Below are positions 6,901 to 59,253 of a stretch of DNA of 64,000 nucleotides, one piece after another (the stretch's first letter is position 1; every line of letters starts with the position of its first letter). Position numbers and translations under genes: made by a program. The DNA comes from a virus. Location: positions 38,075-102,074 of the IMG/VR virus record IMGVR_UViG_3300021142_000013. One strand, given 5' to 3'. Below the pieces are notes generated by a model. That model saw nothing but the letters and a program-made list of their open reading frames with translations. It had not been told where the DNA came from and made no database searches.

Positions 6901-9900
6901 TTAATGCCTGTTTCAGATGTTATTGATCCTAATACAGGTTTGAGAAAGATGTTACCGTATGCTAAAACATTTAATACGTTAATGTCTACATTGTATAACT
7001 TAAATACTCCTAGTGAAAAACAAGAAAAACTTAAAGAACTTGCACAAAAAGACCCTAATTATGTACGTCTTTATAATCGTCTTGGTTTTAATAAACCTGC
7101 TGATCAAATAAATGCTGCAGAATTAAAACTTCAAACAATATTCTTCAGTGTTTTCTCTAAACAGAGACCTGAAACAATGACTACTATAAAAACTGAAAAT
7201 GGTAAAGAAACTTCTACATTTTCTTCTAACACAGTAGCTAATACAGGTAGATTGTTAGAATCTTGGATGACTAATCTTGTAGAAGAAGGTTTGAAATCTG
7301 GTTTAGTTGAAGAAAGAGAAGGTGTTCCTACATTTAAAGCAAGTAAACTTAGAGATGCCTCATTAAAAACAAATGCAGATAAATCTAAATTCTTATCTTC
7401 TTTTGGGATTCAGTTTGATCCTTCTTTAATGGAAAAGCTTTCTGCTAAAGATCAAAAAGATTTATCTAAAGCAATTAATGGATTAAAAGAAGGTATTATA
7501 AAAAATCCTATAATTGTAGATGTTAATAAAAAGACATTAGGCGAACAATCTAATCTAGAGCGTATTGCTGAAATTTTAACAAGAGCTAGTGGTGAAGGAG
7601 AAGAAAGTACTATATTTGGTCTTAAAAGCGAGCAGCGTCAAACATATTTAAATAATAATACAGTAAGTAACTGGTCTAACGATTTAAATAATGTTAAGAC
7701 TAAAGAAGAATTATTTAACAAACTTCCTTTTTTAGAAAACGATCCTTATAGACAAGATTCTTGGTATTTAAGTAATTTGTTTAATGAAGATGGTACTCGC
7801 AAAGCTATTAAATTAGAAACTAAATACACTCAAGGGATAAATGATCAATCAGATAATAGAAATCCCAGAAAGCCTATAGGAGTATTACCATATGCAGAAC
7901 GTGTAGTACATCAGATAAATCAAGAACTCAATAAAAATTATTATATACTTACTCCAGGAGATTCTAAAACAGAATGGATGTTAAGTATGGAACATATTAT
8001 TCCATATTCTAATTTCAAAGGTGCTTTAGTAAACGATAAAGTATATAATTTATTTAATAAATATTATAAAACTGAAAAAGAAATTGCTACTGAAGCAGAT
8101 GGTAAAATTAATGAATCTTATAAATCTTTAACATATCCTATCAACGGTGATTACAATACTGAAGAATTAGGTAAGGAAAAACTAACTAAATTCGTTACTG
8201 ATAGAGTAGAAGCTACCAAAAAGACGTTAATGGATTTTGGCTTTATTCAGGATACAGGTAAAGGATTTAAGTTAAAAGGCTTTGATAAGAATTTTATGAA
8301 AGCAAACGATCTTAATAAAAATTTATCTGCTCAAGAAGTACATGATTTTATTAAGTTTCGTGAAATTAATTATATGCTTAACAACGTTGAACAAACAAAA
8401 CTATTATTTGGAGATATTGTTAGTAAAGCAAAAGATTGGGAAAAACGTGTAAAATCATTTCTATCTCCAAGACAATCTTCTTATTATGGAAATGATGCAT
8501 ACAATAATATTTTAAACGACGAATATAATAAAGTAGGAGATACTCCTTTGAAACAAGGTGATCCTGGGTACTGGAATCATAAAGATAATATGAAGACAGC
8601 TACTATCAAAGATGTATATTCTACAGAAGATAGAGAGTATAACGGTAATCGTAAAAGTATCGTAAATGATGCTTCTTTACCTAAAGAAATTAGAGAAGCT
8701 TATGAGAAAAATAATGTTGCGGATGCTGGTGCATGGGTAAATGCGACTGCTTATAGAGAAATACTGACAAAAAGTCAGCAAACATTCACTAAAGAACAAG
8801 AACAACAGTATCAGTATGAATTAGCAAAAGATAGAATGCTGATAGATAAAGATAGTAAAGCAGGTATTTTACCTAAATCATTATCTTGGCAGTATTCTTC
8901 TGAAGAATTAAGAAAAGCAGATGAAGAACTTTTATCTAAAGGAGATCCTAAATCTGGAAAATTTGCAATTCTTAAAACAGTAGGTACTGGTGTAGATGCA
9001 GAAGGAAATACTTTCTTGCATAAAAAATCTATTGCCCCACAATTCTATTCTATGTTTAGAAAAGAAGAAAATGGTAAAGTGTCTATTGGAAATGGTGCAT
9101 TAGCTTATCTTAAAGATCTTCGTCAAGGAGTTTCTTATCACATTGCAGAAAGTGGTGTAAAAATAGGTGCTAAAGAAAAAGTAGATTTTTACAATAAAGA
9201 AGGACAACCTAATATAGAACAGTTTAATCTTAATCAAATATCTTCAATTCCTTTTAGATATTATGGTATACAGGTAGAAACACAAGGCTCTAAAGAAAAA
9301 CAAACTTTAGGTAGTCAGGTATCTAAGCTAGTTAAAATGAACTTTTTTAATGGTGGCTTACCTATTGATATTCAGGATAAATATAATTTAGATACATGGA
9401 ATGGTTTATCTGAAAAAGAAAAATTAGATAATTCTCCTGTATATAAAGCAATTAAAAGATATTCTGATGTGTATAGTGCGATGCATGATCACGGATACAA
9501 TATCTTTTTAAATAAATTAGGTATTGAGGATTTAGGTGATAGATTTGCTATACCTGATAAAAGTAAAGTACTTGCATTATTACAAAACGAACTTCTTCGT
9601 AGAGAAGCTCCTGAAAATATAAAAGATGCAATTAAACTTAATGATCAGGGAGAATTTGTAACTGCTTTTGAAGCATTACCTAATTATAAACAAATTAAAG
9701 ATATATTCTCTTCTCAAATAGAGAAGAATATTGCAAAGCCTAAAATGAATGGTGGTCCTAAAATCATGTTATCAAATCTTGGATTTGAAGTAGGTGATAG
9801 GAAAATAACTCAAAAAATGGTTAAAGGTAATCCTGTTTATGTATCTTCAGGATTAGAGTTTTATACTGCAGAATATGATAATGCAGGTAAAAGAACAAAA

Positions 9901-33970: not shown

Positions 33971-34773
33971 AAAAATCTATCTTTAAAATCATTAAAATCC
34001 TTTATTCTCTTATATCCTGCAGAAACATGTTGATTATGTTTTGCATCCATAAGAAAACAGCATATACCAGCTTCATTAAGCTCATTAAAGTTCATTTCTC
34101 TATCGTCTATAAACCAATCTATATCTAGACTTTTTATAATATCTACTTTAGATTCTAGATGTTTTACTGTATAAACTGGAACACACGGAAATCCATTTTT
34201 TTGAATCCATTCTTCAGTCCAAGAAGTAGGAATCATACGAGAGGTTATATAGGCTACTGGCTCTAAAGGTAAATCTTTAGCGTCTAATTTTGGAGGAATA
34301 GATAACCAAAATTCCTTATTATCTTTTAATATTTCAAATTTTGATGCTATATCCATATCAAAATTCCAGAATGAAGGCAGATCTTGTTTATGATATCTAG
34401 TCCAATGTCCTATCCAATCTGCTATGACTTCATCAATATCTAGAGCTATTCTAGGTTGTTTCTTATTTACATATAATCTGTTATCCAATTCTGGACAACT
34501 TTTATAATATTCTAACAAAAACATAGCGTTTGTTATCAAATGAGATAAGTGTAATAATCCACTCTCTGAATCATAATCTACGCCCTTTTCATACTCATTA
34601 AGATGTCTTTTTAAAGAACCTATGCACTTTCTCCATTTCATTCCTGACATCCAGTCATTTTCATTATATTTAGCACAACCAAAAGTTAAAACCTTTCCAA
34701 CTTCCTCTAGTAATACTGGAGGAACTAAGTCTAATCGATTCTTATTTTGATCATACCTCTTTGCTTGATTCAT
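33967..34773 (-). CDS. MazZ-like dNTP pyrophosphohydrolase fused to HAD 5'-nucleotidase
   Basis: From the ATG at 34773 the protein has 268 residues. Residues 1-95 match the dATP/dGTP diphosphohydrolase (MazZ/DUF5664) domain: KRYDQNKNRLDLVPP, FGCAKYNENDWMSGM, KCIGSLKRHLNEYEKG, LLHLSHLITNAMFLLEY. Residues 110-268 are a HAD phosphatase of the 5'(3')-deoxyribonucleotidase type: RIALDIDEVIADW (motif I), AYITSRM (motif II) and DWFIDDREMNF (motif IV). Together the domains could take a dNTP to dNMP and then to the nucleoside. This could shape the dNTP pool with MazG and the reductase upstream. No PurZ-like gene is visible, so I do not claim 2-aminoadenine DNA. A start at 34815 would add 14 residues; its start overlaps the endonuclease gene. 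Confidence 0.75.
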   Translation of the reverse strand: MNQAKRYDQNKNRLDLVPPVLLEEVGKVLTFGCAKYNENDWMSGMKWRKCIGSLKRHLNEYEKGVDYDSESGLLHLSHLITNAMFLLEYYKSCPELDNRLYVNKKQPRIALDIDEVIADWIGHWTRYHKQDLPSFWNFDMDIASKFEILKDNKEFWLSIPPKLDAKDLPLEPVAYITSRMIPTSWTEEWIQKNGFPCVPVYTVKHLESKVDIIKSLDIDWFIDDREMNFNELNEAGICCFLMDAKHNQHVSAGYKRIKDFNDFKDRFL

Positions 34774-35776
34774 ATATTTTCCAATTATAATCCATATAGT
34801 ATTTTCTACTTCCATTAAGTATTCTTAATATATACTTTTCTTTGTATTCTATATTTTCCTTTGTTATTTGCTTTATATTATCCCATAACCTAATAACCTG
34901 TCCACTTTTATCTATTTGTTCTATTTTACAAAATTGATAAGTCGTTTTTAATACACATTTTTTAGGAAATTGTTCATATCTAGTTATTATGAAATTTTTT
35001 ATCCTATTACGTTTATTAGTATAACACATTCTTATTTCTGCATCTTGACAATTTAGAAAATCAGTAGCATCTTTTATTAAAACTCCCGACTTTATTAATG
35101 TATATTCTAATGTATATATATCTACTTTAACCCTTTCTGTTCTCTTTTTAATATATAATAAATCAGATTCTGTAAGAACATCATTATAATATAATATAAC
35201 ATATTCATTATACACTAATTTTCTTTTATTTAGTATATTTGATATATGTGGTCTAGACAAATGTGTATCTTCCGATAATAATTTACAAGAGGGATATTCT
35301 TTTATTAATTCTCCATTAAGATTATATAATGTAACTGCTTTATTTAAGCCTATTTCTTCACTATCATGCCCACTAACTCTAAAAGCTTTTTCTTTCTTTC
35401 TTTCAGAAGTTTCTTTTAAATGCGATTCTGATATTTTATATTTAAATTTATACTCTTTTACTGAAGCTATGTTATATCCAAATTTTTTATCATTTGAATT
35501 AAATATTTTTATAAATTCCGCTTCGTATTTTTCACATTCATTAGATGGGCATAATAGTAAAATTTCAAAACTAAAGTTTTCTTCACCGTATTTATTCCAA
35601 GCATTTTGTAAATGTTCGTTATAATGAGTGTTATTAGTAAGGTGTGACAAATGACTTCTTTTTCTATGTCCTACTCCTACTTTAGAGCTACCAATATAAA
35701 GTTTACTATTGATTAAATTTTTAATACAATATATTCCTGATTTTTCTGAATTTCCTTTGTAATTTACAAGTTTCAT
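34751..35776 (-). CDS. Free-standing GIY-YIG homing endonuclease
   Basis: The 341-residue protein begins with a GIY-YIG nuclease domain: SGIYCIKNLINSKLYIGSSK with the GIY and YIG elements, HRKRSHLSHL, then NAWNKYGEENFSFEILL and a conserved Glu in CEKYEAEFI. The remaining 240 residues look like DNA-binding repeats of the NUMOD kind (AVTLYNLNGELIKEYPSC; VDIYTLEYTLIKSG). It has its own promoter (35798-35829) and overlaps the start of the MazZ-HAD gene, so it looks like a selfish insertion between recA-side genes and the nucleotide enzyme. Confidence 0.8.
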   Translation of the reverse strand: MKLVNYKGNSEKSGIYCIKNLINSKLYIGSSKVGVGHRKRSHLSHLTNNTHYNEHLQNAWNKYGEENFSFEILLLCPSNECEKYEAEFIKIFNSNDKKFGYNIASVKEYKFKYKISESHLKETSERKKEKAFRVSGHDSEEIGLNKAVTLYNLNGELIKEYPSCKLLSEDTHLSRPHISNILNKRKLVYNEYVILYYNDVLTESDLLYIKKRTERVKVDIYTLEYTLIKSGVLIKDATDFLNCQDAEIRMCYTNKRNRIKNFIITRYEQFPKKCVLKTTYQFCKIEQIDKSGQVIRLWDNIKQITKENIEYKEKYILRILNGSRKYYMDYNWKIYESSKEV

Positions 35777-44123: not shown

Positions 44124-44525
44124 CTATTTTTCTAATTCTAAATCGCGCCTGAAGAATCTAGAGAGCACGTTATCATTGTATGTATCTTTATTTAACACGT
44201 CATACTTAAATTGATAATAAACTTCAAAATATGTAAGTCCTTTTCTGGTTTTACACTTTTTTAAAATTTTCATTGAAAAGTTTTCTTTACCATATTTTTC
44301 AATATCTTCTTTTAATCTTTTGGAAGAACCCCAATAATCTTTCCATCCACTATCTACATACTCTATTTTATATTTTGGTTTTCTACCTTTTTTCGTGATT
44401 GCGTCTAATTCTTTTTTAGTTAATTTCTTTTTTATTCTATGCAGATACGCTTTTTTACCTATATATATCTGTTTAGTTAACTTATTAGTTATTAGATATA
44501 TATATCCATAGTATTTTTGTTCCAT
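44124..44525 (-). CDS. GIY-YIG endonuclease, SegE-like
   Basis: The 133-residue protein has YYGYIYLITNKLTKQIYIGK (GYI and YIG elements), then GWKDYWGSSKRLKEDIEKYG, ENFSMKILKKC and a Glu-containing helix (LTYFEVYYQFKYD). The pattern DYWGSSK ... NFSMKIL is typical of the SegE-like group of free-standing phage homing endonucleases. It lies 90 bases downstream of the intron-bearing amidoligase gene, and that intron has no reading frame of its own. A near-perfect hairpin precedes the start codon. Confidence 0.75.
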   Translation of the reverse strand: MEQKYYGYIYLITNKLTKQIYIGKKAYLHRIKKKLTKKELDAITKKGRKPKYKIEYVDSGWKDYWGSSKRLKEDIEKYGKENFSMKILKKCKTRKGLTYFEVYYQFKYDVLNKDTYNDNVLSRFFRRDLELEK

Positions 44526-44615: not shown

Positions 44616-46369
44616 CTAAAACAATCTTGTAACTCCTTTATAAGTAAAAGAGTACTTTTTATCTTTTGTGAGATCGTGATTACTTACATAATCTCCTTCT
44701 TTAAAATCTCTTGCAAATATTCTGCATTTTTCTTCATAGTATGCGATTAAATATTCACTTAAAAACGAAGCTGTCTTATCTCCTTTAAAGAATTCTCTAT
44801 AATGATTTAGGACTCCTGTAAATGTTATTTTTTCAGGAGAAGTTATTATTTTTTGTTGATTATATTCTGTATATTTAATAATAGCTAAACACATAAATAA
44901 CCAATTAATCATCTTTTGAGGATTTAAAGTAGCTGAAGATAACCTTGATTCAGCAGTACCTCTTTCAGAAAATATCATGTTCTGATAATTCCACCAATAA
45001 TCATTGTGTTAACATATAGGCTTTTTATCCTACATTTCTATATATTTCTATATAGTTCAGACTATATCTTCACCTAAATAGGTGTTGGATGCTCGTGGTA
45101 ATTTCATAACCGTTCTGGTCGTTTATTACTAGTCGTTGAACCTGCTATCTATTCCTAGATAGGTCGGCTGCTGATTGGCATAGATTTCTCCTTAGCGTCC
45201 CAGCAATTCTTCCAATTTATAGTCGGCAGTATTGGAGTTTACCGACTTTTTCTATTCCATTTTTCTCTGATAGGATGCTTTTTTCTTTGACGATTGTAAT
45301 TTATATCTGCAGGAGCACCGTCAGATAAAAACTTAAATATATCTTCATATACTTCATTGACATATCCTTTATATCCTTCTTTAGATTTATCCTGAAGAGG
45401 GTATATATGTAAGCGATCAAGTTTTTGACAATAATTCTTATGTTTAATACCGTCAGGATTTGTCTTATAATAAGGAAACATTTTAAATACATCATCTTGT
45501 ATCTGATGGCAAAGAATATAAAGAGCTACCATATAACCTCTGTCTAAAGGAATATTTCCAAAATGTATATGATAAGAACAATTAATGTCTACATTACATC
45601 TTTTAGATAATTCCTCTGCAATAGTTACAATGTTTTGCAAACATTTTACTCCTCCCATAGGTACTGTAACCCATTCTGCGCCTCCTATAGAACCATCTCT
45701 ACAGGATACTACTCCGTGACGATATTGAAAATTATTACTACAGTTTCCTGCAGAAGTTTCAATTTCAATACCTATTGTAGTATCTCCAAGAATTTTTCCG
45801 TAAGGAATTACTTCTCGACTAATAGATAAAGGATAATTCTTATATGTTTTTTTCTTTTCTGCAAATTCTTCTACATTATCTTCAATATTGTATCCCTTAT
45901 GTTTGAAGTCTTTTTCCGCACGAATTGATTGAAATTTTTTAATATCCGCTTCAGACCATTCATCTTTATCATACCAAACACAATTTGAAATTTCTTCAAT
46001 ATAATTGTTTTCCAGAAGAATTTCTTTATTTATAGCAGTAAAGTTACCAAATTTCTTACTACGTCCTGCTACATTATTATAAACATTTGGAGTAAAGAAT
46101 TCAAAGATAGGTGTTTTATCTTTGAATCCTATAACTCCTTTTATTAATTGAGGGTTGTCTTGAATAACTTTCCATTCACGTAATTCATAGTCAAAAGCTA
46201 TTTTTCCTGAACATTTACGATACCACTTTCCGTTTATTTCAAAACAATCTTTATCAATTACATGATATGCATCTAATATATGTTTACAATTTATACGATA
46301 TTCCTTTTCACCAGTAACTGTTTTTACTACTTTTAATTTCAAGTTAGGATTATCACTATATAAAATCAT
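44616..46369 (-). CDS. Amidoligase (amidoligase_2 type) split by a group I intron
   Basis: The gene reads as two exons, 46369-45241 and 45001-44616, giving 504 residues after removal of 45240-45002. Exon 1 has GDTTIGIEIETSAGNCS, GGAEWVTVPMGG and NCSYHIHFGNIPLD, the ATP- and metal-site motifs of the glutamine-synthetase-like amidoligases. Exon 2 supplies the last core motif, SERGTAESRLSSATLNPQKM. Splicing restores KSR-Y-YWWNYQNM across Tyr377, whose codon is divided t|at. The family joins a carboxylate to an amine using ATP. It overlaps the class II amidotransferase gene (ATGA) and closes the amidoligase island. Unspliced mRNA gives a 376-residue truncated protein. Confidence 0.85.
45002..45240 (-). 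ncRNA. Group I intron (239 bases) in the amidoligase gene
   Basis: All four core elements are visible on the minus strand: P (AATTGCTGGGA), Q (AATCAGCAGCC), R (GGTTCAACGACTAG, 45142-45129) and S (GAAGATATAGTCTGAAC, 45071-45055). P1 forms between exon AGTCGGT plus one intron A and the intron segment TGCCGACT. It has the required U-G pair at the 5' splice site after base 45241. The intron ends in G at 45002. The exons then join in frame. It has no internal reading frame. Confidence 0.9.
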
Positions 46370-48441
46370 ACATTAACTGTTGTTTTTTTATTTAATTCTT
46401 CGATAAATTCTTTTAACGCGTCTTGATTTGCTTCAGAAATAGTTTCTAAACTCTTTTTGATATTATCTATTACTTTATACAAAGCATTTGCTACTTCTTG
46501 AGCTAAATCATTGTTTTCTAATCCTTGAAGATCATCTGCAACACTATTAATATCTTGTGTAAAAAGAACGGTATCTTCCATTAAAGCCTTAATTTCCATA
46601 ATTTGTTTTTCTTTTTTTTCAGTTAAATCTTCATGTTCAGTTAATGTTTTCTCTATTGTCTTTTCTTCTGTTTTAGCTCCTACTCTTATCCATTTAGCGA
46701 CATCTTCCAGAGAAGCATCTTTGTCAGATGAATTCTTAGAAATTTCAAAGAAATAATCTAAAGTTTCAAAGGTATCTCCTAATTGAGCACGAATTGAAAC
46801 TCCTGTAAGTACAGCTTTGTTGATAGAATTAAATAAAAATGCCTCTACTTCTTCTGTATCAGGATCTAATTCGCAAGTTCGTGTTAAATAATCTGCACAA
46901 TATTGTAAAAGTGCATTAAACTCATTTTTAGAAAATCCTCGTAAAGCAGTTTCAAATTTATCAAAAACAATATCAAAACCTATACCATCATCTTTAATAG
47001 ATGTTTTACAAGCAATATTACAAGAACCAACATTTTTTTGAATGTTAAAGGGAAGTTGCGATTGAAATGATTCATCTATATCCAAGGCTTTATCTCCACG
47101 AACGGAAGAAGTTATGCCTGTAAGATAACCATTACTTACAATATAAACCCGTGAACTGAATTTAAAATCAATATTCTTTTCATAAGGACGACCTGAAAGA
47201 TACCACATAAATCGTGTTTCAGGTGAAATTTCCAAAGATTCTGTAGGTAAATTTGTTACGGGATATATGGAATAATGGCTTATCAATACAGCAAAATTGG
47301 TTCTATTGGAAATCCAATGTCCTTTCGTTGCTTCTTTTGATAAGTATTGAAAATTATCCAAACTCTTAACCATAACTCCTGCGTAAAAGAAATATTGCTT
47401 TGCAGTAACATCTTTCATATCAGAAATTTCACCCCTATGTTTCAACCAGTAAGTGCCATTACAAAGGAGTCCTTTATAATAATATCTACCAAATCTAACA
47501 TATATACTATCTTTATCTGCTTTTTCAGGAATAGTTTCTTTCCATACCAGAGAAATCTTACTATTTTTCTCAAATACAGAAGCACTTTCAGAAGCGGATT
47601 TTATAATATTTTTTATAATATTATTGTTTATTCCCTGATTCTGGTAAGTAAATTCCAAATTAGCATCTTTTCTATTAATTTCCTTACGATATCCTGTGAT
47701 AACTCCATTAGTAACTCTAAATATCGTGTTGTATTCGAGAGTTTCAACTTTTTGGCGATTTTCGCGAATAGATTCTAAAGCAGATGCCATAGAACTAAAA
47801 TAGATACCTTCAGGCGTTTTCATATAGTGCATTGGTCTCTCCTCATAGAGTTCTCCTTTAGGAGTTTTACGCGTTGCACCATGATATAAATAAAGACTAT
47901 TAGGCTGTCCTTTTTTAGTCCAAACTAATGCTGCAGCACCCTTATACTTTTCAAGGATTTCCACGCCTACTTTGTCTATTAACATTCCTAAAGCTTTACT
48001 ATCTACATGTATTTTAATGTGATCTATATCATTTACTCTACATAATTCCCATATGTTTTCAATACGTCCGTTATGTACAATAATCATGTCATTTTTTTCA
48101 TCACCACTTACACTTTTGATGTAAAATGGATGATTATTTTCAACAGTCTGTGCTCCATGAGTAGCTTGCCTTGCGTGGCATATCATCAAATTACCTTTTG
48201 TTATATCTATTAAAGGTAATTCGTAATTTGCAATATAACTACTAAAGAGTCTAGTGTCTAATTTAACTTCTGTATCATTATGTCCTTTGTAAATACTCCC
48301 GTTTACAAAAAATCCACAACCATGTTCGCCTCTACTCTGATTATAAAGACCAAGAATCGCAATCTTCATTCTAATCATGTTTAATTGGACAGGTGTAGGA
48401 GCTTTTATTGCAGAAATACCCCAAATACCACAAAATGTCAT
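46366..48441 (-). CDS. Class II glutamine amidotransferase (Ntn-type) with long C-terminal region
   Basis: From the ATG at 48441 the protein has 691 residues. Its start MTFCGIWGISA carries the class II nucleophile Cys4. It also has HARQATHGAQTVENNHPF (substrate Arg/His region), IVHNGRIENIWEL and HVDSKALGML, all expected for glutaminase sites that release ammonia from glutamine. The C-terminal 450 residues have no synthase domain I recognise and end in coiled coils. Three residues must be removed to expose the Cys. An alternative start at 48510, 4 bases after the upstream gene, would add a hydrophobic leader (LLVQLLFSFIF). It probably feeds ammonia, or transfers glutamyl groups, for the amidoligases encoded around it. 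Confidence 0.8.
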   Translation of the reverse strand: MTFCGIWGISAIKAPTPVQLNMIRMKIAILGLYNQSRGEHGCGFFVNGSIYKGHNDTEVKLDTRLFSSYIANYELPLIDITKGNLMICHARQATHGAQTVENNHPFYIKSVSGDEKNDMIIVHNGRIENIWELCRVNDIDHIKIHVDSKALGMLIDKVGVEILEKYKGAAALVWTKKGQPNSLYLYHGATRKTPKGELYEERPMHYMKTPEGIYFSSMASALESIRENRQKVETLEYNTIFRVTNGVITGYRKEINRKDANLEFTYQNQGINNNIIKNIIKSASESASVFEKNSKISLVWKETIPEKADKDSIYVRFGRYYYKGLLCNGTYWLKHRGEISDMKDVTAKQYFFYAGVMVKSLDNFQYLSKEATKGHWISNRTNFAVLISHYSIYPVTNLPTESLEISPETRFMWYLSGRPYEKNIDFKFSSRVYIVSNGYLTGITSSVRGDKALDIDESFQSQLPFNIQKNVGSCNIACKTSIKDDGIGFDIVFDKFETALRGFSKNEFNALLQYCADYLTRTCELDPDTEEVEAFLFNSINKAVLTGVSIRAQLGDTFETLDYFFEISKNSSDKDASLEDVAKWIRVGAKTEEKTIEKTLTEHEDLTEKKEKQIMEIKALMEDTVLFTQDINSVADDLQGLENNDLAQEVANALYKVIDNIKKSLETISEANQDALKEFIEELNKKTTVNV

Positions 48442-48514
48442 ACTATGATCTCGTTTAAATATAAACGAAAATAGTAGTTGAACTAATAAATAGATTGTTA
48501 TTATTGTCATTGTT

Positions 48515-49339
48515 TTAGTTTTTTTCTAAGAATTTTAGTTTAGCAATTTTTGGTACTTCTTCAATATATTTCTGTAAAGTGATAACTCCCATTGATGGAG
48601 CAGATGCGCTTTCTATAACAATCCACTCTGGATTTTCTCGTTTACGATTCTTTTTATCCTGAGCAGATTGTACTCGAACATCAAATGCAGCTATGTCAAG
48701 ACCTAAATGTTGAAGAGCATCTACACAATCTTTAACAATAGAATCCCAATTAACAGGCTTATTGAACTCCTCATTGTTTTCAAGAATCCATACACAATTA
48801 TCATCATGTCTTTGCCATTTGTTTTTTTCAGGAGCATCTCTTTTCAACATTTTTCTACAAGTATAGAAACATCCATTTTTAGTTACATGTAGACGATATT
48901 CTCTTGTATAAGAGTAATATTTTTCTAATATGTAATTGGAATTATTTTTCCCTTGTATAGTTATATTAAATTCTTCAAGATTATCACAGAGATAATTACC
49001 TGTACCTCTAGATCCTAATACATGTTTAATAACTATAGGAAAAGGTAACTCTTTTGTTGCGATTTCTTGTTTCGTTTCAGCATCAATGATAATCCCTTTA
49101 TCAAAATAAAACCATTTAGCTGTTTTGATATTCCCTTTATTGAAACATTCCTTCATCAAATGTTTATTTGATGAGTTTTTAACCCCTTCTACGCTATTTA
49201 TTTGTATATATCTAGGATCTACTATCTCTGTAGTGCTACCTAGCCTTAAAACGCTTCTAAATGGCAATAATGGTAGTAAATTTCTCAGTTCTTGATGGCT
49301 GGGATGCCTCGACCTCAATCTTGTTCTAAAGAGTTTCAT
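48515..49339 (-). CDS. ATP-grasp ligase of the amidoligase island
   Basis: The 274-residue protein has the ATP-grasp core: LPFPIVIKHVLGSRGTGNYL (ATP-binding Lys and flexible loop), NYILEKYYSYTREYRLHV (hinge Glu and Arg), DIAAFDVRVQS and EWIVIESASAPSM (metal-binding Asp/Glu). N-terminal RSVLRLGSTTEI is like the R-x-G-S-T entry of phage ATP-grasp proteins. Such enzymes make an acyl phosphate and couple it to an amine (RimK, D-Ala-D-Ala ligase type). It overlaps the class I amidotransferase gene by 14 bases. Together with the amidoligases it suggests successive additions to one product. Confidence 0.8.
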   Translation of the reverse strand: MKLFRTRLRSRHPSHQELRNLLPLLPFRSVLRLGSTTEIVDPRYIQINSVEGVKNSSNKHLMKECFNKGNIKTAKWFYFDKGIIIDAETKQEIATKELPFPIVIKHVLGSRGTGNYLCDNLEEFNITIQGKNNSNYILEKYYSYTREYRLHVTKNGCFYTCRKMLKRDAPEKNKWQRHDDNCVWILENNEEFNKPVNWDSIVKDCVDALQHLGLDIAAFDVRVQSAQDKKNRKRENPEWIVIESASAPSMGVITLQKYIEEVPKIAKLKFLEKN

Positions 49340-49940
49340 CTAATAGTTTATTTAATAAGTTTTGGAAATATTTAACAGTTTCATGATTCTCAGGCATATA
49401 TTCAGGATGAGGTTGTATACCTAATGCTTTTATTTTAGGATAATATACTACTTCGCACTCTAATGGCGGATTCATTTCTTCCTCATTACCGCCTTCATGA
49501 TAAGGAGAGATATCTTTTGTCCATCCAAGAATTTTATAATCTGTTTTAGGTAAATTAAACGGATATTGTGCCTGATGATGAGTAGATGTTACCATTAACT
49601 CCTTACCATCATACGTTTTCATTTTATGATTACCTGGATTATATTGATGTTGAACGAGTTTTCCTCCTGCAAGTATCGAAGAAATGAATTGTGATCCCCT
49701 ACATACACCGCATATGGGTATACCTAAATTAATTGCTTTTTCAGCTTCTTGTTTTTCTTCAACATCGCGCTGTTTATTATTTCCTGTACGAGGATGTTTT
49801 TTTTCACCATACATTGAAGGGCTTACGTCTTCGCCGCCTGTGAGAACTACAAGATTAGCTTTTTCCATTTTATTGGTTATTTCTCCTTGCATCCAGTTGG
49901 CATATCCTTTAGAGCCACCTATGACATAGATTTTTCGCAT
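49326..49940 (-). CDS. Class I glutamine amidotransferase / gamma-glutamyl hydrolase (peptidase C26-like)
   Basis: The 204-residue protein has the triad of the family: nucleophile Cys in IPICGVCRGSQFISSIL, and His/Glu in LGIQPHPEYMPEN. VVLTGGEDVSPSMYG near the start and TSTHHQAQYPFN fit gamma-glutamyl-GABA hydrolase (PuuD) and C26 peptidases better than synthase-linked domains. The reaction would be cleavage of a gamma-glutamyl amide, or ammonia release. In the island it could trim or recycle the ligated product. Overlaps with genes on both sides show tight coupling. Confidence 0.8.
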   Translation of the reverse strand: MRKIYVIGGSKGYANWMQGEITNKMEKANLVVLTGGEDVSPSMYGEKKHPRTGNNKQRDVEEKQEAEKAINLGIPICGVCRGSQFISSILAGGKLVQHQYNPGNHKMKTYDGKELMVTSTHHQAQYPFNLPKTDYKILGWTKDISPYHEGGNEEEMNPPLECEVVYYPKIKALGIQPHPEYMPENHETVKYFQNLLNKLLDETL

Positions 49941-50614
49941 TCTATTATTTTTAAGTAGTTATTTAATAATTCTTCTTTAGTCTTACTATCCTTTAGAGCT
50001 TTTTCTAGTTTTGTATTTGCAGGATAAGTTTCATACATATCTTTTAGCTTTACAATACCGAAGTTCTTTTTTAAATATGCATTCACTAAAGTACCCTCTG
50101 GTGTATCAGAATTCAAAATGTATTTTAAGTATTCTTCATGATTTACAAATCGTACTAATACATGCGCAGGACGAAAAGAATGCATCTGATCACATACATA
50201 TGTACATAAAACAAATATATTCCATAATTCAGATATCTCAACAACATCTTTTGAGAATTTTAAGAACGCTTTTACAATTAAATAGAAATCTCCCTCATAG
50301 ACATAACGAATACTATTAATAAGTATCTTACCTACTAAATAAGAGTTTTCACTAACAATTATATCCACGATCCATTTTTCTTTTGTATTTTCATATGTGA
50401 ATATGAAACCTAATTTTTTCAAAAGAGAAAAATATCTTATTACTTGATTTTCACTTAATCCGTCGTACCAATCTTTAACAATATATATTTTAATCGATTT
50501 AACTTTGGATAATTCACAATAAATGTGTGAAAAACAAGAACTTCTGTCAATTTTTACTTCCTTGTCTGTATTTGTTATATAATCGTAGGTTACTATTTGA
50601 TTACAATATTTCAT
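49919..50614 (-). CDS. Unknown protein of the amidoligase island, paralogue A
   Basis: This 231-residue protein of unknown family is clearly related to the next gene upstream. Shared marks are IKIYIVKDWYDGLSENQV against VQVFFVKKWSNALTEEEI, LKKLGFIFTYENTKEKWI against LKKMKFKFTYRNTEEEWI, and LVGKILINSIRYVYE against LVNKILLNCFRFLYA. It is soluble, mixed alpha/beta, with no catalytic motif I know. It may be the substrate carrier, a structural partner or the acceptor of the ligases. It overlaps the class I amidotransferase gene by 22 bases. Confidence 0.6.
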   Translation of the reverse strand: MKYCNQIVTYDYITNTDKEVKIDRSSCFSHIYCELSKVKSIKIYIVKDWYDGLSENQVIRYFSLLKKLGFIFTYENTKEKWIVDIIVSENSYLVGKILINSIRYVYEGDFYLIVKAFLKFSKDVVEISELWNIFVLCTYVCDQMHSFRPAHVLVRFVNHEEYLKYILNSDTPEGTLVNAYLKKNFGIVKLKDMYETYPANTKLEKALKDSKTKEELLNNYLKIIECEKSMS

Positions 50615-51248
50615 TTAATAATTCTTTACAATTTTTAGAATTTTTTACAGCATCAATATACTTTTGTTTACAGTTATTGTATTTGTCTTGTCCAGGTAGT
50701 CCAAATTCATGTTCTATATAATGTCTAATGTGTTCGTTAGTACTTGCTTTTAAAATTTTTTCTTGAAATTCTTGCAATGTAACTAAACGTACTCCTATAT
50801 ATGGATTAAATGAATGATTTGAATTAGACCGTGTATCTACGTAAGTAGACAATAACAAGATATTCCATAAAGGTTGTTTCTGCTTGTTTTTTACAAATTT
50901 TAGAAATGTTTTAACAATATCTGGAAAATTTTCAGCATATAAAAAACGAAAACAATTCAATAGAATCTTATTAACCAACATACTATTCTTTTCAGGTTTT
51001 ATTTCAAATATCCACTCCTCTTCTGTATTCCGATATGTGAATTTGAATTTCATTTTTTTTAAATATCCTAAAAAAGATAATATTTCCTCTTCTGTTAGTG
51101 CATTACTCCACTTCTTCACAAAAAATACTTGAACCGTTTCTATATTATATAAGTTTCTATAAAAACGATTGTAACACGCATAATTTTCGCGTAATTGAAA
51201 ATTTTCATCTGCTTTATATTTTAAACGATATTCTACATCACAATGCAT
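50601..51248 (-). CDS. Unknown protein of the amidoligase island, paralogue B
   Basis: This 215-residue protein is the tandem relative of the preceding entry, with the same order of strands and helices and a conserved end (LWNILLLSTYVDTRS against LWNIFVLCTYVCDQM). It begins MHCDVEYRLKYKADENFQLR. The pair arose by gene duplication within the operon and has diverged strongly, so both copies have probably been kept for distinct roles, perhaps as a heterodimer. It directly abuts the amidoligase gene (no bases between). Confidence 0.6.
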   Translation of the reverse strand: MHCDVEYRLKYKADENFQLRENYACYNRFYRNLYNIETVQVFFVKKWSNALTEEEILSFLGYLKKMKFKFTYRNTEEEWIFEIKPEKNSMLVNKILLNCFRFLYAENFPDIVKTFLKFVKNKQKQPLWNILLLSTYVDTRSNSNHSFNPYIGVRLVTLQEFQEKILKASTNEHIRHYIEHEFGLPGQDKYNNCKQKYIDAVKNSKNCKELLNEIL

Positions 51249-52046
51249 TTATACTAAATTTATTTGAAAGTCTTTAATTAAATTCTCAGCTAATTCTCTA
51301 TTAGAATTATTTATTGTTTGTTGAATAATATCGCCCAATCCTTCTATTTCATTAATGCGATTATTGTTCACAAAATCAACAGCTTTTTTAGTATTTTTAA
51401 AAGTCCATGTTATCAATCTCTTATTGGAAGAAAAAAATGAAGATAAAGTTCTGTATTCAGCACCCCATTGAGTGTGGCGCATATTACCTGCACAACCATA
51501 TCCAACTTGTTTTCTTTCATTTTCTGGTTCAATGAGTATAGATGGTACTCCTAGAAATAAATCACATGCTTTTATTAATGCATAATTTGCCTCTTCAGAT
51601 GGATTATCATAGCCCATATGAATGTGATATCCACAAGCACGAAGATTATCTCCTGTTGGTTGAGGACGTATTTCTTCCAATGTCCAACAATTCCATGACG
51701 GGTCACAACCGAAATGCTTTGCATTATCTGTTTGCAGATATTTTTCATCTAATCTTGCAGAAGGCATTGCTATCGCTTCTAGATTAGCAGGAATAGTTGC
51801 GTTAATATAATTAATTAATTTAGCAACATTCTTATAGAATTCATAAGCAGTCTTTACAGGTGGAATATTTCCTTCTGCAGATACATTATCCAAAGAAGTT
51901 GCGAAAAACTTATTTCCTGCTACAAATTTAAAAGGTTCGTCCTTTGTTCCTCTTATTATTCCTTCTGCGGATACTACTTCTTTAGTTTTTTTATCTCTTA
52001 GGAAATACTCAATATCGCTACCTAGCGTTAAATTATTTATTTTCAT
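51249..52046 (-). CDS. Phage-type amidoligase (phiEco32-like COOH-NH2 ligase type 2)
   Basis: The 265-residue protein has LTLGSDIEYFLRDKKT (first acidic metal/ATP site), VSAEGNIPPV, ARLDEKYL, RACGYHIHMGYDNPSEE (HxH strand) and WGAEYRTLSSFFSSN (late Glu-Arg motif). These are the motifs of the phage COOH-NH2 ligase type 2 family, a glutamine-synthetase-fold group that forms amide bonds using ATP. It is distinct from the intron-bearing amidoligase in the same operon. The cyclotransferase gene lies three bases upstream. Confidence 0.85.
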   Translation of the reverse strand: MKINNLTLGSDIEYFLRDKKTKEVVSAEGIIRGTKDEPFKFVAGNKFFATSLDNVSAEGNIPPVKTAYEFYKNVAKLINYINATIPANLEAIAMPSARLDEKYLQTDNAKHFGCDPSWNCWTLEEIRPQPTGDNLRACGYHIHMGYDNPSEEANYALIKACDLFLGVPSILIEPENERKQVGYGCAGNMRHTQWGAEYRTLSSFFSSNKRLITWTFKNTKKAVDFVNNNRINEIEGLGDIIQQTINNSNRELAENLIKDFQINLV

Positions 52047-52049
52047 ATA

Positions 52050-52490
52050 TTAATGTTTATTATTCCAATTACCAGATTTAATTATATTTTTGCGTTCAAA
52101 AGCATCATCATTATGCATTACATACATGTATCCTTTACCATACGGAGTATCTACTGCAATTATATCATACCAATTATCACTATCTCCAGGAATCCCTGTA
52201 CATCCTTCTAAGCGATGTACTCTATTTAAAACAGTGTTACTTGTTATTTTAAATACATCACATTCAATAGAACCTTTACCATTATCTATAACAATAGGAA
52301 AATGATCATTTTTTCCATACATTGTATAATTTGCATCAGTTCTAAATGTGCCTAAATATTCTGATTTGTGTTCTAGAAACGCTTTGTAATTATTTCTTCC
52401 TAAGCGCAAAGTTCCATAAACACATATGAGAACTTCTGGATTTTCTTCTGTAATTTCAATTCTTTTTGTTTGTTTTAGTACTGCTTCCAT
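52050..52490 (-). CDS. Gamma-glutamyl cyclotransferase-like (AIG2/GGACT) enzyme
   Basis: The 146-residue protein has VLICVYGTLRLGRNN (the YGTLR loop that binds the glutamyl group), SIECDVFKI, and RVHRLEGCTGIPG with the catalytic Glu of the family. Cyclotransferases release 5-oxoproline from gamma-glutamyl amines such as glutamyl-lysine isopeptides or glutamyl amino acids. As the first enzyme of the amidoligase island it may remove or edit a glutamyl tag. Its ATG overlaps the stop of the small gene upstream. Confidence 0.8.
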   Translation of the reverse strand: MEAVLKQTKRIEITEENPEVLICVYGTLRLGRNNYKAFLEHKSEYLGTFRTDANYTMYGKNDHFPIVIDNGKGSIECDVFKITSNTVLNRVHRLEGCTGIPGDSDNWYDIIAVDTPYGKGYMYVMHNDDAFERKNIIKSGNWNNKH

Positions 52491-52648: not shown

Positions 52649-52918
52649 TTATAGTTGTTCAGGGGTTACTAATAGCATGTCGTATCCATAATTTACTAAT
52701 CGCGAATTAATATTGTCACATAATTCTTCTACAGTGAATTCCTCACATAGAAATTCATAAGAATTCGCTTCATCTAGAAAATTGTAATCTTCTAATTCTC
52801 TATTTTTAGCAAAACTCTTAAAAATATCTATAACTTTTGAATACAATTTCTTTTCGCTACTAGAAACATAACTTTCTTGTACAATTCCATTTCTTAGAAC
52901 TAAGATTACTTTCTTCAT
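52649..52918 (-). CDS. Hypothetical protein, 89 residues
   Basis: I do not recognise this protein. It starts MKKVILVLRNGIVQESYVSS and has an acidic helical end (EEFTVEELCDNINSRLVNYG). The MKKVILVLRNG start is a beta strand rather than a signal peptide. It overlaps the primase gene by four bases. Confidence 0.5.
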   Translation of the reverse strand: MKKVILVLRNGIVQESYVSSSEKKLYSKVIDIFKSFAKNRELEDYNFLDEANSYEFLCEEFTVEELCDNINSRLVNYGYDMLLVTPEQL

Positions 52919-53925
52919 AATAGATTTTTACTAATGAATAATTCTTTTAACATATCTAATCCATAATATTTTACATAATCACTTGCATCTTTAATTTTGA
53001 ATCGTTCGTACTCCTTGTATGGTATATTGAAGTAGCCAAAACCTTTATTATTCAATTTAATAGATGAATTTACACCTGTAACATCATTATCAAAAAAAAT
53101 GACTATCTTCTCAAAAGTATTCAGTAGTCTTTGTTGTAATTCCTCTGGAAAAGCTCCTTCTGATTCATTTTGCGTTGCAAGAACATTTTTGAAAAGTTTA
53201 CGGCAAATTATTAAATCTTTTTTACTTTTCGTAATAATACAAATCTTTTCATTGGAATTCCAATCAAAGTTAGATAATCCAAATGGAACTGTTAAAGGTA
53301 AAGAACTAACCCATTTCATTTTATCATCATGTGGACTATATATTTTTACTCCTACTTTATCCTCGTAGGGTTCAGGATATGCGAAACGCAATATGTTTTT
53401 AGTCCAAATTTCTTTTTTATTGATAAAAAGTTTCTTTATTGGATAGACATTTTCTCTTTCTAATTCTTCTTGTTTTATTTCATATTGTCGCCAAAAAGAT
53501 AGATTTTCTTTATTCCATTTATCTTTAACAAATTGAATGATTGTAGATTCTTTAATTTCTTTATCCAACGAATTGCTTTCTATAAATACCTTTTCAGGAA
53601 CCCTATTAGTAGTTCTATCTATTAATCCAAAGTCTTGTGCTATTCTTTCTAATGCTTGATAAAAATTACAATTATATAGAGTTTTAACAAAATCAAAGCA
53701 ATCCCATGTCTGATTATTACGAAAATCAGTATATATAATTTTGCCATTTTTACCAATAAAGAAAGAACATGAAGGATTTTTATCTTTAGAAAATTTTGAA
53801 CAATACGCACGACCTATCTTGAAGGAACCATGATAATACATAAATATTGCTTCTTCAGTTATCCTGCTAAGAATCCATTCTTTAGATAATAAAATTTTTA
53901 CAGTTGCTTTGTTAAAATCATACAT
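52915..53925 (-). CDS. DnaG-type primase
   Basis: The 336-residue protein has an N-terminal domain like the DnaG zinc-binding domain, partly degenerate (GRAYCSKFSKDKNPSCSFF with DCFDFVKTLYNCNFYQALER), and a TOPRIM domain. The TOPRIM Glu position is weak (EKICIITKSKKDLIICRKLF); its metal site is KIVIFFDNDVTGVNSSIKL and IKDASDYVKYYG. DnaG-type primases make RNA primers for lagging-strand synthesis. It lies with helicase, SSB-like and Sak4-like genes. The conserved Glu of TOPRIM seems replaced in ITKSKKD, so the exact catalytic site should be aligned before activity is assumed. Confidence 0.75.
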   Translation of the reverse strand: MYDFNKATVKILLSKEWILSRITEEAIFMYYHGSFKIGRAYCSKFSKDKNPSCSFFIGKNGKIIYTDFRNNQTWDCFDFVKTLYNCNFYQALERIAQDFGLIDRTTNRVPEKVFIESNSLDKEIKESTIIQFVKDKWNKENLSFWRQYEIKQEELERENVYPIKKLFINKKEIWTKNILRFAYPEPYEDKVGVKIYSPHDDKMKWVSSLPLTVPFGLSNFDWNSNEKICIITKSKKDLIICRKLFKNVLATQNESEGAFPEELQQRLLNTFEKIVIFFDNDVTGVNSSIKLNNKGFGYFNIPYKEYERFKIKDASDYVKYYGLDMLKELFISKNLL

Positions 53926-55382: not shown

Positions 55383-56814
55383 CTAAAATAATTCCTGTTT
55401 TCCAAATTTTTCTTTTCTTTCTTTTTCATAAATTATTATCCTGTCATATATCTCATTTAATTTTTCTTTATCTGTTGGAAGAGGCATTTCTTTAAAAATT
55501 TCACGTTTACCATCAAAATATAAACCACATCTGGGAGCCATTTCACCCTCGTTATTTTTAAGCATTAGAAGCGATTTGAACCTATCTCGTAGTATTTCTA
55601 TATTATAACCATCTGCATTGGGATACCATGGAATTTCATATCTCCAAGGAGAAAATAAAGCAAACATTACAAAGAACATTTTGTTATCATACAAGCTCTT
55701 TATCTTGTATATCTGTATTTTATTTTGTTATATATACAGCTCAGACTATGTCTTAATCAATTTTCATTGATTTCCCGCTTTCGTGGTAGAATTATATCCT
55801 CGACTTTACGTTAGGAATCACTACTAGTCGTTACACATTCTCCTTTATTTCTAAAGGGTTTAGCTCGGCGTTGCCTTCTTCAAGGTTTTCACCGAATTAA
55901 CGGGATTTCTCGTGACTTCATATTTTGTATTTCATACTATCATAAATATAATCTTGTATTAAATGAAAAAACAATTTTAAACTATTTCTTCTTATATAAA
56001 TTTCAATTTATTTTATAGTATTTGTTAAAATATTTACTCTATCACGCATAATTACTTTTGCGTCTCCTATGCTGGAAATATTAGGTTCAACTGCAGATAA
56101 ATTTACTTTTCCAGCATTACGAAAAGTATGTTTCTCTGTTTCAGCATCTACTTGTAATACTGCTACTACAGTCATATTTAATTTTTTACATAGATCTAAT
56201 CTTATTACATTCCTGGATAAGGTTTTGATTGCCTCCCATTCTGTATTATGATGTGCGTCTTTTGTAATATTTGAATAATTATCTATAATAGCTATTAAAT
56301 GATGCGTTTCTCCATATTTTTTATGTAATTCATGAGATACTTTTTGTATTTCAGAAGGAGAAGAACAATTATTTATAATATAAACGCTTTCGTCGAACTC
56401 CTTGTAAAAATCTGCATCCTGTTTCAAATAATTTAAATATTTATCAGGAATAGGTACATCTTTTGAATCGAGATATTTAGCAGATATATCTATATGATGA
56501 CGAGTATATAAATAATGTATCATCATTTTTTTATATATAGCTTCATCACCATCTTCCAATGCGAAATATAATATTTTTACAGGATAATTATTTTTTTTAG
56601 AAAATTCCAGCGTTTTATAAACAAAAGCATCTCTTATCCATCTACTTTTACCTATACCAGAAGAGCCTAATATTCCTATATAAGAACCTTTATCTATTGA
56701 AGGAATATAATCTTTATATCGTTCAAAGGGAAATGGTATTCCATTGTGTAATCCCTTTTCTTTTCTTTCTTTTTTATTGATAATACTCTGTAAAACTCGT
56801 TCATATAATCCCAT
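55383..56814 (-). CDS. DnaB-like replicative helicase split by a group I intron
   Basis: Exon 1 starts at 56814 and has YIGILGSSGIGKSRWIRDAF (Walker A), VKILYFALEDGDEAIYKKMM (H1a-type Glu) and LIAIIDNYSNITK (Walker B). It ends in SIGDAKVIMRDRVN just before an in-frame stop at 56008. The C-terminal part resumes at about 55690 with YDNKMFFVMFALFSPWRYEI and FKSLLMLKNNEGEMAPRCGL, the H4 region and arginine-finger side of DnaB helicases. Splicing gives about 360 residues, a RecA-core-only helicase. It unwinds DNA at the replication fork. The exact splice sites are uncertain by about 20 bases. Confidence 0.8.
55696..56032 (-). ncRNA. Group I intron in the helicase gene (approximate ends)
   Basis: Minus strand core elements: R as GTGTAACGACTAGTAG (55836-55821) and S as AAGACATAGTCTGAGC (55754-55739), with P/Q-like CGAGAAATCCCG and GGCAACGCCGAGC. 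Both flanks continue one DnaB-like protein. The 5' site is probably after GTAAAT or ATTTT near 56032-56025 (U-G pair in P1) and the 3' site near 55690-55700. No internal reading frame is seen. Confidence 0.8.
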
Positions 56815-57684: not shown

Positions 57685-59253
57685 TTAACATAGTTTTTCT
57701 ATATTCCTTCGTACTTGTGATAAAGTAGTTTGATTGTAAAACGCACCATTTTCATATATAACTTGCAATATTCCTTTATCTTCTTCTTCAGGAGTACATT
57801 GAGTATATACATTGAAATTATGATCCACAGCAACCATTCCTTTCAAAGATTTCTTAGTACCATCATCCGTTATAGGATCTTTATATATGTCATACGCAAT
57901 TCGTTCTACTTCATATTCATAATCTACAGGAATTCCTTGTGCATTTTTTACAACTCTTGCAAAACCACCTTCTTTTTTTTGAAGGATTTCAAACCAAGAG
58001 CCCTTAACAGCAAATCCAAAAGTATCGCGAGTATTCATTTGATAAGTAAAAGAACCTACACCGAGAACAATATTAGTACAAGCAAATCCTTTAGCTTCTA
58101 AACGTCTATAAATCTCCATTTGTCTATCTAGAGTAATAGAATCACCATAAATAGCTCCTATATGAGAATCAAGTACTTTATAACCTTGTTTGTTAACTGT
58201 ACCACCAAACATATCCCAAAGTAATTCAATTACACCCTTTTCTTTAGAATTTGATTTGATTTTAGAATGTTCATTTTTCCATTCTTCTTTATTATCCCAT
58301 ATAACTTCACCACAAATTATATCTACAGGATCACCAGAATCAGGACGTATTACTAATTTACCATCACGAGCCATTATGGCTTCTTTATTAGCTGGTAAAT
58401 ATTCGGTAATGAGTTTCCATAAATCAAATGTATCTGAAACAATTGATAATATACCTATTGGAAATTCTTTTAACCAGTCAGCAATCATTTGTTGTTCACC
58501 TACAGTAAATATTTTTGTTGTGCTTACTGAGTGTTCAGACGCATTGACAGAATTGATAGAAACCTCATTCTCAGGCTCGTTATAGAAGTATCTAGCTCCT
58601 GGTATAACTATAAGTGTATCAGAACCTCTAAACGAAGATGCGTGACCTAATCCACTAGCTAGCATATCAAAAGGAGATAATCCTCTAGCACTAAAATCAT
58701 GAGCTAAATATGGAAGAAGTCCAATATTCTTCTCATCTGTTTTATTTATCCATTCTTTTAGATTTCTACGATATTGTAAAGCAATAGTTGCAGAAGTAGA
58801 AGATTTCCAAGATAATGCAGAAATAATTGTTTCTAGGTATAATGTTAACCAAGCATATCCATCTATTGTATTAATAAATGTCATATGTGGAACATTTGCA
58901 GAAGTTTCTATACCTTCTGGTAAAGCTTTAATTTTAATAGGTAAATAACCTAATTTATGGAGTTTGATAAAATGATCTCCTTTAAATTCCATATCAAGAT
59001 ACATAGACATATCTCTAATAAAACTAGCTGCTTCTTCTTGTGTTTTATCAAAGAAATTCTCTTTAAATTCGTCATGTAACCATTTAATCATAAGCTGATG
59101 ACCAAATGAAAGAATTTTAGTTATTCCTTTAGGTGCATGTTTTACACTTCTCGGTATCAATGTTCCATATAAACGAACTGTTCCAGGAGCTAACATTTTT
59201 TTGTGTCCCACTTTATATCCATCTGAATAGTAGAGACTTAATGGTTTAAACAT
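57685..59253 (-). CDS. Nicotinamide (phospho)ribosyltransferase-like enzyme (NAMPT/Namat family)
   Basis: The 522-residue protein matches the NAMPT fold throughout: LYYSDGYKVGHKKM, AHDFSARGLSPFD, GLGHASSFRGSDTLIV (base-binding Asp), NASEHSVSTT with catalytic His241, IVSDTFDLWKLIT, KLVIRPDSGDPVDI and YGDSITLDRQM. NAMPT joins nicotinamide to PRPP to give NMN. The related phage Namat of NARP1 joins nicotinamide to pyrophosphorylated ADP-ribose to give NAD+ directly. The PRPP-synthetase-like partner is two genes upstream. Which substrate is used cannot be read by eye; see the finding. Confidence 0.9.
   Translation of the reverse strand: MFKPLSLYYSDGYKVGHKKMLAPGTVRLYGTLIPRSVKHAPKGITKILSFGHQLMIKWLHDEFKENFFDKTQEEAASFIRDMSMYLDMEFKGDHFIKLHKLGYLPIKIKALPEGIETSANVPHMTFINTIDGYAWLTLYLETIISALSWKSSTSATIALQYRRNLKEWINKTDEKNIGLLPYLAHDFSARGLSPFDMLASGLGHASSFRGSDTLIVIPGARYFYNEPENEVSINSVNASEHSVSTTKIFTVGEQQMIADWLKEFPIGILSIVSDTFDLWKLITEYLPANKEAIMARDGKLVIRPDSGDPVDIICGEVIWDNKEEWKNEHSKIKSNSKEKGVIELLWDMFGGTVNKQGYKVLDSHIGAIYGDSITLDRQMEIYRRLEAKGFACTNIVLGVGSFTYQMNTRDTFGFAVKGSWFEILQKKEGGFARVVKNAQGIPVDYEYEVERIAYDIYKDPITDDGTKKSLKGMVAVDHNFNVYTQCTPEEEDKGILQVIYENGAFYNQTTLSQVRRNIEKLC

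Follow-up and report, generated by a model that had tools for sequence, protein, structure and literature searches.

Phages of the phiEco32/LUZ24 type carry, in one gene run beside the primase gene, an amidoligase module that comprises a COOH-NH2 ligase, an Amidoligase_2 protein, a class II glutaminase, an ATP-grasp ligase and a GGACT-type cyclotransferase, with tandem proteins of a type termed CFG below situated directly upstream of the COOH-NH2 ligase. This module is said to have been predicted in 2009 by Iyer, Abhiman, Burroughs and Aravind. In putrescine use (PuuA/PuuD) and butirosin synthesis (BtrJ/BtrG), a gamma-glutamyl group is ligated and subsequently removed by a C26 hydrolase or an AIG2-type cyclotransferase. 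For phiEco32, a passage in PMC10580990 attributes to Iyer et al. 2009 the proposal of a cell-wall modification against superinfection, and no experiment on any module member was found in the literature searched. Here, we analysed a stretch of viral DNA (the window, i.e., the final 64 kb of the 102-kb virus record IMGVR_UViG_3300021142_000013) of which positions 44616–52490 encode such a set of enzymes.

Comparison with described modules

The locus is near certainly a phiEco32/LUZ24-type amidoligase module in a crAss-related phage. The initial annotation had seen a possible undescribed pathway in it, a claim that had to be given up, because this cassette was already recognisable in phi14:2, cr108_1, Lbo-JY46, phiEco32, LUZ24, GAP52, P59, SE131 and LAh_6 from their annotations. 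The window shares with the phiEco32/LUZ24 module all of the components named above, including the tandem CFG-type proteins directly upstream of the COOH-NH2 ligase, but differs from it by an added C26 hydrolase, the lack of a phrog_4877 protein between the ligases, a permuted gene order, a membrane-like glutaminase N-terminus, and an amidoligase 2 gene split by a group I intron. Such a phrog_4877-type protein stands between both amidoligases in Grimontviridae, phiEco32 and LUZ24 modules (e.g., L122:7817-8434, L123:3290-3859 and L119:5830-6408, as well as the C2 open reading frames (ORFs)), and none was found in the window.

The Crassvirales phages phi14:2 and cr108_1 (Steigviridae) likewise hold homologous enzymes in one operon beside the primase. 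Like the window, phi14:2 has an N-terminal extension on its glutaminase, and cr108_1 has a C26 gene and a CFG pair; unlike the window, phi14:2 is without C26 and without a detected CFG pair, cr108_1 is without an annotated GGACT in the run, and neither has the intron. The closest annotated amidoligases (47% and 40% identity) are those of Leptolyngbya phage Lbo-JY46, whose relative gene order (i.e., GGACT, amidoligase 1, C26, ATP-grasp, class II glutaminase, amidoligase 2) is that of the window, whereas it has no detected CFG pair, a 240-aa C-terminal extension on the ATP-grasp protein, and no intron. Finally, PuuA/PuuD and BtrJ/BtrG follow the same protect/deprotect logic, but the phage ligases resemble glutamate-cysteine ligase rather than glutamine synthetase and have no putrescine or butirosin partners.

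All module genes lie on the minus strand and, from GGACT (52050–52490) through the ORF holding amidoligase 2 exon 1 (45239–46369), are spaced by –22 to +4 nt, which bears out the tight minus-strand operon described initially. The run extends unbroken upstream via two small ORFs to the primase gene (52915–53925). Its features are:

52915–53925, minus strand: DNA primase (phrog_12622), upstream in the same run and adjoining the module in most relatives
52050–52490, minus strand: GGACT, AIG2-like gamma-glutamyl cyclotransferase, 146 aa (PF06094, phrog_2520, YtfP 1xhs)
51249–52046, minus strand: amidoligase 1, phiEco32-type COOH-NH2 ligase type 2, 265 aa (PF14395, phrog_3815)
50601–51248, minus strand: CFG-family paralogue 2, 215 aa (38% identity to its neighbour; near-invariant Cys and Arg of the family)
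49919–50614, minus strand: CFG-family paralogue 1, 231 aa, with C27 and R103 (AlphaFold2 model, BFVD matches)
49326–49940, minus strand: probable gamma-glutamyl amide hydrolase with a class I GATase fold, Peptidase C26 type, 204 aa (PF07722; conserved Cys80, His178 and Glu180)
48515–49339, minus strand: ATP-grasp (RimK/D-Ala-D-Ala-ligase-like) amino-acid ligase, 274 aa (phrog_2599)
46366–48510, minus strand: class II N-terminal nucleophile (Ntn) glutaminase with a membrane-helix-like extension (residues 1–26), Cys27 and an uncharacterised C-terminal region, 714 aa (PF13522, GlmS/PurF fold)
45241–46369, minus strand: amidoligase 2 (Amidoligase_2, PF12224) exon 1, up to the first base of codon 377, which follows Arg376 (computed exon junction, spliced product)
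45002–45240, minus strand: predicted group I intron, 239 nt, without internal reading frame (RF00028)
44616–45001, minus strand: amidoligase 2 exon 2, holding catalytic E394 and R396 in spliced numbering (splice reconstruction, homologue alignment)

Matches to the primase, at about 30% identity, come mainly from crAss-like phages and from phages of Bacteroides/Flavobacterium, Lbo-JY46 being the nearest, whereas the structural proteins of the window gave no match or non-crAss matches. These data suggest a crAss-related phage without closer placement, and we kept to that label because the structural genes are not obviously crAss-like. Elsewhere in the window, a nicotinamide phosphoribosyltransferase (NAMPT) gene lies near the module (57685–59253, minus strand), as it does in several unrelated phages (L003, L120 and L125, which also have a phosphoribosyl pyrophosphate synthetase gene there), and a single ORF of 3895 aa occupies 961–12648 (plus strand).

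Conservation among relatives

Scanning IMG/VR with the ATP-grasp alignment alone yielded 151 relatives, 80 of which were kept; locus counts below cover the 47 relatives in which at least 7.5 kb of flanking sequence was available in each direction. On the same strand as the ATP-grasp gene, the class II glutaminase and amidoligase 2 were present in 47/47, amidoligase 1 in 43/47, GGACT in 39/47, C26 in 38/47 and the primase in 37/47, so that co-conservation of the gene set in related phages, proposed as a check in the initial annotation, held. Moreover, the glutaminase and amidoligase 2 genes were adjacent in that order in 47/47 loci, and primase and GGACT in 36/47. Retention of the catalytic residues upon alignment, the second such check, was also observed, these residues being almost invariant over 67–103 members per enzyme with the exception of the ATP-grasp Mg-site Asn and the second His of amidoligase 1.

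The COOH-NH2 ligase occurs in 315 named phage records, and the module was also found in crAss-like phages of many environments. In bacterial and archaeal genomes, only one close match was found (on a 9-kb contig of an uncultured metagenome-assembled genome), next to weak partial ones. Since close relatives are nearly absent from these genomes, the module appears to be viral.

Enzymes of the module

Both amidoligases, the ATP-grasp ligase and the cyclotransferase named in the initial annotation were confirmed. Amidoligase 1 matches PF14395 (E 4e-11) and phrog_3815 (E 1e-53), with E13, H141, E197 and R199 kept in 83–84 of 84 members and H143 in 71/84, while amidoligase 2 matches PF12224 once its intron is removed (see below). 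GGACT matches PF06094 (E 2e-13), phrog_2520 and YtfP (1xhs, E 2e-5); its YGTLR motif is kept in 60–72 of 73 members depending on the residue, and Glu95 in 66/73. The ATP-grasp protein matches phrog_2599 (E 2.5e-23), its Pfam scores being under the curated cut-offs (PF02222, 5.5e-5; PF08443, 6.4e-4). Residues K105, E139, E147, R149, D220 and E243 are present in 86/86 members; Mg-site position 245 is Asn in 62/86, Cys in 20/86 and Ala in 4/86, the window having Ala.

The assignment of one class I and one class II amidotransferase stood for the latter (PF13522, E 1e-12) and became doubtful for the former. The supposed class I enzyme scores 63.5 bits (E 3e-17) against PF07722 (Peptidase_C26) versus 32.4 bits against GATase, keeps Cys80 in 100/103, His178 in 95/103 and Glu180 in 96/103 members, and has as best NCBIfam match the gamma-glutamyl-CDP-amidate hydrolase NF045546 (E 5.5e-9, far below the cut-off), while GMP synthase subunit A is the best match of its Lbo-JY46 homologue. 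By these scores it is probably a hydrolase, closer to C26 gamma-glutamyl hydrolases than to ammonia-donating GATases. The class II glutaminase still suits the ammonia supply proposed initially, for which the C26-type protein is a less probable source.

In seven loci (L026, L027, L030, L047, L052, L082 and L064), the C26 gene between ATP-grasp and amidoligase 1 is replaced by a C9-family protein of about 190–235 aa, the C-terminal part of which looks GNAT-like by eye. No placement was obtained for the families C9, C4, C16 and C22 found in this slot.

Amidoligase 2 and its group I intron

Read without an intron, as was done initially, the downstream end of the run holds two ORFs (45239–46369 and 44616–44978), which proved to be the two exons of one amidoligase 2 gene encoding 504 aa when spliced. 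The region between them (45002–45240) matches RF00028 with 79.7 bits (E 7.8e-21; gathering threshold 50), and a 7-bp P1 with a U.G at the splice site could be read by eye. Excision from the T after ...AAAAGTCGG to the G of ...AACACAATG takes out 239 nt and leaves the exons in frame, with the junction of the spliced protein reading ...KSRYYWWNYQNMIFSERGTAESR. Judged by its core and in-frame junction, this element is a group I intron and presumably self-splicing. Exon 1 alone gave no Pfam or PHROG match, whereas the spliced protein clears the PF12224 cut-off (E 1.1e-4; 22.6 bits vs. 22) and aligns end to end with the intronless homologues of Lbo-JY46 (40%), cr108_1 and phi14:2. The intron is located after the invariant Arg376, 18 codons ahead of catalytic Glu394; E394 and R396 are invariant in 67/67 members.

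Two other explanations of this region were rejected. The intron match, the splice and the PF12224 pass identify 44616–44978 as exon 2 rather than a separate small gene. Against a pseudogene or assembly break stand the reading frame, which the splice reopens without loss of any catalytic residue, and the introns at the same codon in three diverged phages. Indeed, amidoligase 2 is interrupted after the same Arg in the distant phages L024, L044 and L060, whose intron cores are 75–88% identical to that of the window over the aligned parts (with Rfam support for L060), and whose introns carry an additional ORF, HNH-like by eye, that is missing from the window intron. Amidoligase 1 is interrupted two residues ahead of its catalytic His in L032, L059 and L060, and at other sites in L053 and L069. 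Group I introns usually insert at conserved active-site codons. Because they do so here, gene-calling programs break up amidoligase 2, and in some cases also amidoligase 1, which leaves these enzymes under-annotated.

A second group I intron candidate is present in the window at 55677–55990 on the minus strand (Rfam match 55726–55959; RF00028, 53.3 bits, E 3e-12), between ORF 56008–56814, encoding a DnaB-like helicase, and ORF 55383–55694, which may be another exon of the helicase gene. Both introns were overlooked by a whole-window Rfam search at the gathering threshold and picked up by restricted searches. Directly downstream of the split amidoligase 2 lies a free-standing ORF that is GIY-YIG-like by eye (44124–44525, minus strand), and a free-standing homing endonuclease according to PHROG is encoded at 34751–35776 (minus strand). 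Among the relatives, homing-endonuclease-like ORFs of the families C15 (L053, L060, L069, L084), C8 (L024, L025, L043, L044, L050, L060) and C10 (L044, L057, L084, L091, L093, L102), which by eye look LAGLIDADG-like, HNH-like or GIY-YIG-like, lie inside or beside module genes, a distribution suggestive of a module that mobile introns invade preferentially.

The CFG family

The proteins encoded at 49919–50614 and 50601–51248 are 38% identical (E 1e-38) and without family match in Pfam or NCBIfam, in agreement with their initial description as tandem paralogues of no known family; relatives do exist, however. Such relatives lie in similar operons of L008, L011, L024, L049, L069 and L100, and L008 intermediates bridge the window pair to the tandem pair of cr108_1 (hhalign probabilities of 82–97% for L008, L011, L100 and the L008–cr108 bridge); before these intermediates were added, a profile comparison of the window and cr108_1 pairs, with two sequences each, was negative. 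A second group, of 31 ORFs of about 180–230 aa from crAss-like module phages and mostly upstream of the primase, matches the window family with a hhalign probability of 95% (E 3e-8). In the 56-member CFG alignment, Cys27 and Arg103 are each present in 55/56. On these alignments, the window paralogues are members of a large, previously unrecognised family, CFG, that travels with the module, and a CFG gene was detectable in at least 24 of the 51 crAss-like loci with enough upstream sequence.

The AlphaFold2 model of the 49919–50614 product (pLDDT 85.8, pTM 0.87) retrieved nothing better than E 0.14 from the PDB. From the viral library BFVD, it retrieved both cr108_1 proteins and proteins of Cronobacter GAP52, Aeromonas LAh_6 and 4_4572, and Citrobacter CVT22, those of GAP52, LAh_6 and 4_4572 being located in or beside amidoligase modules of their own. 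A tandem pair directly precedes the COOH-NH2 ligase in GAP52, 4_4572, phiEco32, LUZ24, P59 and SE131 (6/6), and a Cys-aromatic motif (C[FYW], sought at residues 11–41) is found in 14/14 proteins of these phages, namely both members of each pair plus two more ORFs of 4_4572, versus 1/73 other coding sequences; in the 14 proteins it lies at residues 19–32. A profile search of the crAss CFG family against the phiEco32, LUZ24 and GAP52 tandem proteins was not significant. Motif and gene position, together with a fold match for the GAP52 and Lahexavirus proteins only, suggest a link between CFG and the phiEco32/LUZ24 group. The COOH-NH2 ligase would then have tandem CFG copies at its side in the modules of crAss-like phages, Grimontviridae, phiEco32 and LUZ24 alike. 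Scans with the CFG alignment, and with a single protein, found nothing. One PADLOC match of a CFG paralogue (32 residues, E 5e-4) was taken as chance.

The initial annotation regarded the paralogues as possible acceptors or scaffold. Because the Cys and Arg are invariant, an enzymatic or covalent role is at least as likely. In its boldest form, which we regard as a long shot, the usually paired CFG proteins would be the catalytic heart of the module, the invariant Cys carrying the amidoligase product as a thioester to its target and the invariant Arg binding a carboxylate. If true, such a relay would constitute a phage non-ribosomal peptide-conjugation system with E1/E2-like logic, built on a fold of which no relative has been solved.

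The class II glutaminase and its N-terminal extension

The glutaminase domain was modelled with a GlmS/PurF-like fold, the model being too weak in the C-terminal region, where no fold match was obtained. Cys27, R114, N147, G148 and D170 are present in 73/73 members. In 36 of 77 relatives, the window's included, the catalytic Cys is preceded by a hydrophobic segment of 24–34 aa and then basic residues. Close relatives may differ in this extension only: L063 has MVKIILILALLQYIYNFIFGYKSNILS ahead of the Cys, whereas L065 starts with MCG and has no such coding upstream, and the glutaminase of L074, also a close relative, likewise begins directly at Met-Cys. Ntn glutaminases need a free N-terminal Cys, so that extension 1–26 would have to be removed for activity. 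This implies a free N-terminal Cys27 that is generated close to the membrane. The glutaminase looks like a membrane-held proenzyme, the catalytic part of which would be cytoplasmic by the positive-inside rule. A lipoprotein signal was rejected because of the basic residues that separate the helix from the Cys.

Possible functions

The enzyme set combines three ATP-dependent carboxylate-amine ligases with one glutaminase and a pair of enzymes that cleave gamma-glutamyl bonds, and is best read as build-and-trim gamma-glutamyl chemistry, to the extent that homology predicts activity. The two glutamate-cysteine-ligase-like amidoligases and the ATP-grasp ligase would couple an amine to a carboxylate, most likely the gamma-carboxyl of Glu or Gln, the glutaminase would supply ammonia for amidation, and GGACT and the C26 hydrolase would strip gamma-glutamyl groups, so that a product is built and then trimmed. 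The affinity of the C26 protein to gamma-glutamyl hydrolases, together with GGACT, indeed points to gamma-glutamyl editing. An envelope-side target is favoured because the glutaminase looks like a membrane-held proenzyme; this target could be a precursor of the envelope (e.g., the lipid II peptide) on the inward-facing side of the cytoplasmic membrane. Its modification, early in infection, would probably serve to exclude superinfecting phages or to protect the wall. As a full explanation, envelope precursor modification is put forward tentatively, at somewhat less than an even chance.

Several points weigh against it, the envelope target itself being conjectural. The extension is absent in 41/77 glutaminases, which start at Met-Cys or Cys, including those of the phiEco32 and LUZ24 type, and activity of the window's ATP-grasp protein is not certain given the Ala at its Mg-site. 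With primase and replication genes as its neighbours, the module might instead act in DNA or nucleotide chemistry. Moreover, the great diversity of the hosts (Cellulophaga, Leptolyngbya, Pseudomonas, Escherichia, Aeromonas) calls for a nearly universal target, and a conserved protein would fit as well as peptidoglycan.

That last point leads to protein tagging, in which the ligases would mark a virion protein or a conserved protein of the host (e.g., a ribosomal protein or RNA polymerase) with a short non-ribosomal peptide or amide, with CFG proteins selecting or carrying the substrate. Besides the near-universal target that the host range demands, it draws on the location of the module in the early/replication block beside the primase, on the naming of the phrog_2599 ATP-grasp family as ribosomal protein S6 glutaminyl transferase, and on the action of RimK-like ligases on proteins. 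The likeness to RimK is weak, however, with D-Ala-D-Ala ligase, PurK and cyanophycin synthetase scoring about equally, and no module member is known for protein binding, so that we consider tagging unlikely, albeit worth keeping in view. A diffusible small metabolite, i.e., a gamma-glutamyl amide that alters host physiology, blocks a defence signal or acts extracellularly, appears improbable. The enzyme set does recall gamma-glutamyl protect/deprotect pathways, and the low-scoring NCBIfam neighbour of the C26 protein belongs to capsule phosphoramidate synthesis, but the run contains no transporter or export gene, and none of the six module proteins tested matched a PADLOC defence model, bar the chance CFG stretch. 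The faintest case is that for an amino-acid- or amide-bearing nucleotide in or on phage DNA, since the constant primase neighbourhood, the uracil-DNA glycosylase, exonuclease and ribonucleotide reductase nearby in crAss-like relatives, and the NAMPT (window, Lbo-JY46, 4_4572, SE131) and phosphoribosyl pyrophosphate synthetase (Lbo-JY46, 4_4572, SE131) near the module are offset by the lack of any hydroxymethyl-pyrimidine kinase or other known base-hypermodification gene noticed beside it, and by the fact that the latter two enzymes serve NAD salvage and neither lies next to the phi14:2 module.

Significance

The cassette, found in more than 300 named phages and formerly labelled vaguely as an auxiliary metabolic gene ('AMG'), is now a defined module with a core gene list and near-invariant catalytic residues usable for mutants. 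New here are the amidoligase 2 intron, the CFG companion family with its invariant Cys and Arg, the putative glutaminase propeptide and the closeness of the supposed class I amidotransferase to C26 gamma-glutamyl hydrolases. With the pathway known in outline, interest lies in the CFG family, in the repeated introns at active-site codons, and in the N-terminus of the apparent pro-glutaminase, the location of which near the membrane would point to the site of the chemistry.

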